Source of the DNA: Flavobacteriales bacterium
GTDB taxonomy: Bacteria > Bacteroidota > Bacteroidia > Flavobacteriales_E > Vicingaceae
Reading direction: 5' to 3'
DNA: 64,000 nucleotides
Assembly: GCA_905339165.1 (NCBI GenBank)
Contig: CAJPFH010000005.1
Span: 1 to 64,000, forward strand
The notes beneath the pieces were generated by a model, which worked only from the letters and a program-made list of their open reading frames with translations, was not told where the DNA came from and made no database searches. Position numbers and translations under genes: made by a program. Of this stretch, positions 58,060 to 59,276 are shown piece by piece; position 1 is the first letter of the stretch; each line of letters begins with the position of its first letter.

Positions 58060-58551
58060 ATGCCTTCATTCGATATTGTTTCAAAAGTAGATATTCAGAA
58101 ATTAGACAATGCAGTAAATGTGGTAAAGAAAGAATTGCTTACTCGCTATGATTTTAAGGGGACAGAAACTTTGGTAGAACTAGATAAAAAAAATACTTTG
58201 CTTTTGGTCTCTACCACTCACAGCATGGGTACTGGAGCAATCGTAGATATTATTATAAGCAGAAGCATGAAACAAGGATTAGATGCTCGCTGTTTTGATT
58301 TTTCAAAAGAAGAATACCCTTCAGGAAGGGTTATAAAGAAAGATATTCCGGTAAAAAATGGGATAGAGAGAGAAACAGCAAAGAAAATTGTGAAAATAAT
58401 AAAAGATTCAGGAGCTAAAGTTCAGCCGTCTATAATGGACGATATGATAAGAGTAAGCGGAAAGAAAATAGACGATTTGCAGACTGTAATTGGTCTTTTA
58501 AGAGGAGATAATACTATAGAGATTCCTCTGCAGTTCGAAAACTTTAAGTAA
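58060..58551 (+). CDS. yajQ: YajQ family nucleotide-binding protein
   Basis: 163 residues, full length. The N-terminus MPSFDIVSKVDIQKLDNAVN, the block RYDFKGTETLVELD and the C-terminal IRVSGKKIDDLQTVIGLL are diagnostic. Members bind cyclic di-GMP in Xanthomonas and GTP/ATP in E. coli; the partner here is unknown. Eleven bases separate its stop from the convergent small membrane gene. Confidence 0.92.
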   Translation: MPSFDIVSKVDIQKLDNAVNVVKKELLTRYDFKGTETLVELDKKNTLLLVSTTHSMGTGAIVDIIISRSMKQGLDARCFDFSKEEYPSGRVIKKDIPVKNGIERETAKKIVKIIKDSGAKVQPSIMDDMIRVSGKKIDDLQTVIGLLRGDNTIEIPLQFENFK

Positions 58552-58562
58552 TAGCAAAAGGA

Positions 58563-58688
58563 TTAAAAAAACATACCGCGACTATTGATATCGTGGTTTT
58601 GCGAATGATTGATATAGCCGGTTTTTCCCCCTCTTAGTAAAACTACAACGAGAGCAAAAACAATAACAATGATTCCAATTAGTAACAT
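58563..58688 (-). CDS. Small membrane protein, 41 residues
   Basis: This ORF is too short for the usual cutoffs but has a textbook promoter (TTTG, 19 bases, TACATTTG) ending about 28 bases before its ATG. It reads MLLIGIIVIVFALVVVLL for the first 18 residues, one hydrophobic helix. A basic/glycine turn (RGGKTG) and a polar tail (YINHSQNHDINSRGMFF) follow. I infer an inner-membrane single-span peptide with the tail in the cytoplasm under the positive-inside rule. I do not know a family. Confidence 0.68.
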   Translation of the reverse strand: MLLIGIIVIVFALVVVLLRGGKTGYINHSQNHDINSRGMFF

Positions 58689-58716
58689 AAAAACTATTTT
58701 TGACTGTTTAACGGGA

Positions 58717-58747
58717 CAAATGTACTAAAAGTTTCGATAAATTCAAA
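58717..58747 (-). promoter_or_regulatory. Consensus Bacteroidota promoter of the small membrane gene
   Basis: On the minus strand TTTG (58747-58744), exactly 19 bases, then TACATTTG (58724-58717): both elements fit the consensus with the right spacing. The transcript should begin near 58710 and give a leader of about 20 bases. This is the best promoter by consensus in the window. Confidence 0.7.
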
Positions 58748-58769: not shown

Positions 58770-59276
58770 ATGAAAACAATCTTTCTTTTACGTCATGCCA
58801 AATCAGACTGGTCTAACAAAGAGCTTTTAGACTACAACCGCCCTTTGAATAATAGAGGACTAAAAGACGCATCGTTTATGAGTAAGCTATTAAAAGATAA
58901 ACTTTCTTTTATAGAAGCGGTATACAGTAGTACGGCTACTAGAGCAGAGCAAACAACCCATTTTTTTGCAAAGGAATTTGGGATAAAAAAAGAGGATGTA
59001 TACTGGAAAAAAGAGATATACGACTATCATTACGAAATGCAAAAACTTATACGCATTCTTTTAACTATTGAAAATAGATTTCAACAAGTATTGTTTGTAG
59101 GGCATAATCCGGGAATAAGCGAAATGGCTTTCTACTTATGTGGAGAACCATGTATTACAATGCCAACATGTTGTATTCTGAAAATAGAATTACAAATAAA
59201 CCATTGGGAAGAAATTAGTGCCAATTGCGGAAATTATATTTTTCAGGAATACCCTAAAAAATATAAAAATAAGTAA
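58770..59276 (+). CDS. sixA: SixA-like phosphohistidine phosphatase (histidine phosphatase superfamily)
   Basis: 168 residues. The RHG-type motif is FLLRHAKSDWSN with His8, and the second histidine is in VGHNPGISEMA. SixA removes phosphate from phosphohistidine in signalling proteins, for example the PTS-Ntr component NPr in E. coli; the target here is unknown. It is divergent from the small membrane gene. Confidence 0.85.
   Translation: MKTIFLLRHAKSDWSNKELLDYNRPLNNRGLKDASFMSKLLKDKLSFIEAVYSSTATRAEQTTHFFAKEFGIKKEDVYWKKEIYDYHYEMQKLIRILLTIENRFQQVLFVGHNPGISEMAFYLCGEPCITMPTCCILKIELQINHWEEISANCGNYIFQEYPKKYKNK

Follow-up and report, generated by a model that had tools for sequence, protein, structure and literature searches.

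Does the short space between yajQ and sixA in this stretch of Bacteroidota DNA (the window, 64,000 nucleotides in full) hold a gene for a small membrane peptide, and if so, with which partner would the peptide act? An initial annotation had placed a 41-residue peptide gene between the two, and both the direct reading of the sequence and the Pfam matches of the flanks bear this out. The locus comprises the following features:

58060..58551, plus strand: yajQ (DUF520), convergent neighbour of the peptide gene (Pfam YajQ/DUF520, E 1.7e-55)
58563..58688, minus strand: 41-codon gene for a predicted single-span membrane peptide (from sequence, dN/dS, homologues and predicted helix)
58717..58724, minus strand: -7 promoter box TACATTTG, a TAnnTTTG conserved in homologues
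58734..58737, no strand: sole remaining TCGA box of this promoter region, lying 13 bases before the -7 box, counterpart of a phased array in other genera
58744..58747, minus strand: -33-like TTTG, separated from the -7 box by 19 bases, absent from the sister genome G001
58770..59276, plus strand: sixA-like histidine phosphatase gene, divergent from the peptide gene at a distance of 81 bases, conserved syntenic partner

The peptide frame runs on the minus strand from an ATG at 58688 to a TAA at 58565-58563, is preceded by an in-frame stop codon and translates as MLLIGIIVIVFALVVVLLRGGKTGYINHSQNHDINSRGMFF. A search of the source genome gave no further match to the peptide. The divergent phosphatase matches Pfam His_Phos_1 (E 3.6e-9), and its top NCBIfam model is sixA, with 57 bits vs a cut-off of 74.5. 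On the other side, yajQ runs towards the peptide gene, and 11 bases separate the two stop codons (58549-58565); a simple scan found no terminator-like hairpin between these stops.

We compared the frame with that of a sister genome of the same genus (G001), which carries the same gene at the same place with 40 of 41 residues identical. Nine sense codons differ between the two genomes, eight of them silently and one with an exchange of V to I; the stop codon is TAA in one genome of the pair and TGA in the other. Loss of the frame in relatives had been named in advance as one observation that would speak against a gene, and the comparison of these codons gave the opposite result: the frame is retained in G001. 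Because nearly all codon changes are silent (dN 0.011, dS 0.37), the frame is almost certainly translated. The neighbouring genes gave a dN of 0.084 and a dS of 0.41 (sixA) and a dN of 0.032 and a dS of 0.29 (yajQ); constraint at the protein level thus looks tighter on the peptide than on either neighbour, as far as a short gene and one genome pair allow such a comparison. In pairs of homologues from other genera, dN is again well below dS (e.g., 0.10 vs 1.4). The codon comparisons show strong purifying selection on the peptide gene (58563-58688), and, judged from sequence, it is very nearly certain that this minus-strand frame is a real gene.

When 60 relatives were searched with the single sequence, only the sister genome rose above noise. 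Reading the sixA neighbourhoods of the relatives revealed peptides of 46-50 residues upstream, in the same slot and on the same strand, and a profile search found such peptides beside sixA and divergent from it in 22 genomes of four genera (g1, g4, g5, and g13), eight of which (G013, G017, G022, G024, G029, G034, G060, and G068) had been lacking from the profile seed. Next to sixA, the slot is the same in all 22 genomes, whereas yajQ is adjacent only in this genus. Most members share a consensus consisting of M-I, a hydrophobic helix, LRGEGxSYGK, a basic stretch, and a DKN[FY]FL end. Copies away from sixA occur in G005 (no sixA), G064 (truncated, no sixA), G007 (at a locus of its own), and tentatively G016. 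In a class-level sample of 395 genomes, homologues were found only within the same taxonomic family and none outside of it, and Pfam, NCBIfam, PHROGs, and PDB gave no convincing family or solved structure matching the peptide or its homologues.

With a profile built without the window's genus, the window peptide reached 8 bits, the second-best score among 1784 window frames; when helix and tail were shuffled separately, 246 of 5000 shuffled sequences scored as high. Because this left-out-genus score is weak, slot, layout, and promoter carry as much weight as sequence in assigning the window peptide to the family. Since slot, strand, distance to sixA, helix start, tail pattern, and promoter all agree, orthology with the sixA-divergent peptides is very probable, although sequence alone does not prove it. 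The gene status of the frame is independent of this membership. A gene located about 80-100 bp head-to-head with sixA, the arrangement that marks the family, is also present in the window (81 bases). The peptide thus very probably belongs to a small, apparently unnamed family that is new, although its kind is known.

This kind is that of the small single-span membrane proteins. The gene is protein-coding and, with 41 codons, remains under about 50 residues; its product is predicted to be located in the membrane. Residues 2-18 are hydrophobic or small throughout, and AlphaFold2 predicted a helix over residues 2-37 (pLDDT about 88 over residues 1-20), long enough for one membrane span. The homologues have the same layout, with a single helix at the extreme N-terminus, a glycine/basic turn, a polar tail, and an end with an aromatic/leucine motif. 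The net charge of the tail is +1 to +5 in 22 of the 24 members and 0 in two. The window peptide ends in SRGMFF, unlike DKN[FY]FL, although sixA is present. Single-span helices can be oriented by the positive-inside rule. Because a single helix is predicted and the tail is weakly basic, we infer from this rule a single inner-membrane helix in N-out/C-in orientation, the conserved tail of which would lie in the cytoplasm.

Upstream of the gene, the minus strand reads TTTG (58747-58744), 19 bases, TACATTTG (58724-58717), 28 bases, and the ATG, which confirms the elements and distances given in the initial annotation. In the promoter map of F. psychrophilum, the -7 consensus is TAnnTTTG and leaders are typically short, with a median of 24 bp (PMC9723704). 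Like Flavobacterium sigma-A promoters, TACATTTG is spaced from the ATG in keeping with such short leaders, and the flavobacterial consensus position would place the transcript start at about 58710 (PMC9723704). The promoter match alone proves nothing, because TTTG-N19-TAnnTTTG is not enriched genome-wide (35 matches in the 3.16 Mb genome vs 42 for a reversed control pattern); its weight comes from conservation. TAnnTTTG is found 34-42 bases upstream of the ATG in 23 of the 24 homologues, and in about 14 of them a TTG lies 18-20 bases further upstream. In G001, the -7 box reads TACCTTTG and the -33 TTTG is gone. Hence, the description as a "textbook Bacteroidota promoter" applies to the conserved -7 box, but not to the -33 element, which is lost in the closest relative. 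The more general claim, that a small membrane peptide is encoded here and has a promoter of its own, finds strong support in the codon-level selection, the same-slot homologues in other genera, and the conservation of the -7 box. Inside the peptide leader, TATTTTTG on the plus strand (58695-58702) could be a -7 box of sixA; G001 reads TCTTTTTG at this site, which is not conserved.

In the three other genera, the whole spacer between the peptide gene and sixA is filled by an array of TCGA boxes phased at 19-21 bp on the peptide -7 box. Of 21 promoters, 20 have a TCGA at -53, 20 at -32, and all 21 at -13, counted from the -7 box. Additional boxes occur at about +8, where most read TAGAYGAA, and in some promoters also at +29. 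At the window frequency of TCGA (0.002 per base), the chance expectation for a single position, allowing one base of play, is <1%, but the promoters are related by descent. The exact pattern TCGAYAAA-N5-TAWWTTTG gave at most two matches per genome in twelve genomes, mostly at the peptide-sixA locus, and a control pattern with the spacing between TCGA and the -7 box shifted by one missed the peptide promoters. In the window's genus, the -13 box is present and the -53 and -32 boxes are absent. The array of the three genera distinguishes their promoters from those described for Flavobacterium in PMC9723704, the main text of which is without TCGA. We infer that it could be an operator for a regulator shared by the peptide gene and sixA. 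TCGA-pair sites elsewhere did not form a consistent regulon, no regulator of the boxes was identified, and a literature search for TCGATAAA-type operators yielded nothing relevant. A second promoter of this type, TCGATAAA-N5-TATATTTG-TCGA, was observed in G061 (contig C42; L153:1209-1530, identical to L107), upstream of a short hydrophobic frame (MDEGIITGIVTTVILGGIMILLYVNSKKHD...) that adjoins an ABC-type ATPase gene.

The initial view that no partner is visible was too pessimistic. The sole constant neighbour of the peptide gene is sixA, located head-to-head in the 22 genomes of all four genera, and no gene of a membrane complex is constant. G005 (L081), G064 (L080), and G016 (L084) match no SixA by protein or model; they possess the peptide, in G016 tentatively, with a changed or truncated tail, and the incomplete genomes G065 and G066 contain neither peptide nor sixA. 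SixA is the first candidate partner because of the fixed divergent pairing, this joint absence, and the altered tails without SixA. Three findings run counter to such a link: most other genera have SixA without a detectable peptide, G005 has kept the peptide without sixA, and the tail of the window peptide itself departs from the family pattern. That SixA is indeed the partner is a tentative and rather doubtful proposal.

Alternatively, a larger membrane complex (transporter, oxidase, or sensor kinase) unrelated to SixA could have the peptide as a small accessory subunit or modulator, and the divergent arrangement would only reflect shared promoter space. Many characterised single-span peptides act in this way, such as MgrB on PhoQ (PMC8404706), and the peptide of G005 without sixA as well as that of G007, where SixA is encoded elsewhere, would be in agreement with it. 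But the one constant neighbour is sixA and not any gene of a complex, and genomes that lack SixA show an altered tail motif; we consider this a serious possibility, albeit not a probable one. Size and single hydrophobic helix also resemble, for example, DinQ (PMC3567139), as would be expected if the peptide were the hydrophobic toxin of a type I toxin-antitoxin system, silenced by antisense RNA. Such a toxin is quite improbable, given the lack of any other genomic match, the stable chromosomal slot in four genera, and the conserved tail motif; moreover, no RNA family match exceeded the gathering score and no antisense gene was found. The idea of a chance open frame within a conserved regulatory or RNA region could draw on the shortness of the frame, the AT-richness of the window, and the lack of genome-wide enrichment of the promoter pattern. 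We give it hardly any credence, since nearly all changes are silent, the frame is kept across species, protein motifs are conserved while the DNA diverges, and homologues occupy the same slot.

Because protein and promoter are both conserved, the peptide probably has a regulatory or anchoring role at the membrane. The best explanation overall, towards which we lean with slightly better than even confidence, is a small peptide of the inner membrane (N-out/C-in) with such a role, which is co-controlled with sixA and contacts a partner by its tail. The peptide would be transcribed from its own sigma-A promoter, and the DNA-binding protein governing this promoter would also cover that of sixA. The product would insert into the inner membrane as one helix with the N-terminus outside, and its tail would contact a cytoplasmic or membrane partner, with SixA as the first candidate. 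A more specific version, which we regard as unlikely, has a dedicated peptide controlling or anchoring the phosphohistidine phosphatase SixA via its cytoplasmic tail, and an oligomeric regulator, bound to the TCGA array with its boxes two helical turns apart, switching both genes. If true, SixA in these Bacteroidota would be a phosphatase under membrane control; a literature search on SixA in Bacteroidetes gave nothing relevant on its control in this phylum.

Small membrane proteins are often overlooked by gene finders and family libraries. Because of its protein-level selection, fixed slot, conserved -7 box, and the operator-like array in relatives, the peptide locus makes small-protein regulation in uncultured Bacteroidota accessible to concrete tests and offers a candidate partner for SixA. 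With its helix followed by a polar tail, the peptide is like FixQ (PF05545), SecG (PF03840), and other small membrane subunits, and single homologues match the FixQ and SecG Pfam models marginally (E about 0.02-0.04). Unlike for these subunits, there are no neighbouring oxidase or translocase genes, and different homologues match different models. We rejected an identity with FixQ or SecG: homologues reach about 14-15 bits vs curated cut-offs of 29-31, and the window peptide has no Pfam match. YohP, MgrB, and DinQ are stress-linked single-span small membrane proteins of E. coli (PMC7549839, PMC8404706, PMC3567139). The peptide differs from them by its phylum, its divergent orientation to sixA, and the aromatic/leucine motif at the end of its tail, and no sequence relation to them was found. 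Like these three proteins, it combines a length of around 50 residues or fewer with one (predicted) helix, its own promoter, and no catalytic domain (PMC7549839, PMC8404706, PMC3567139).
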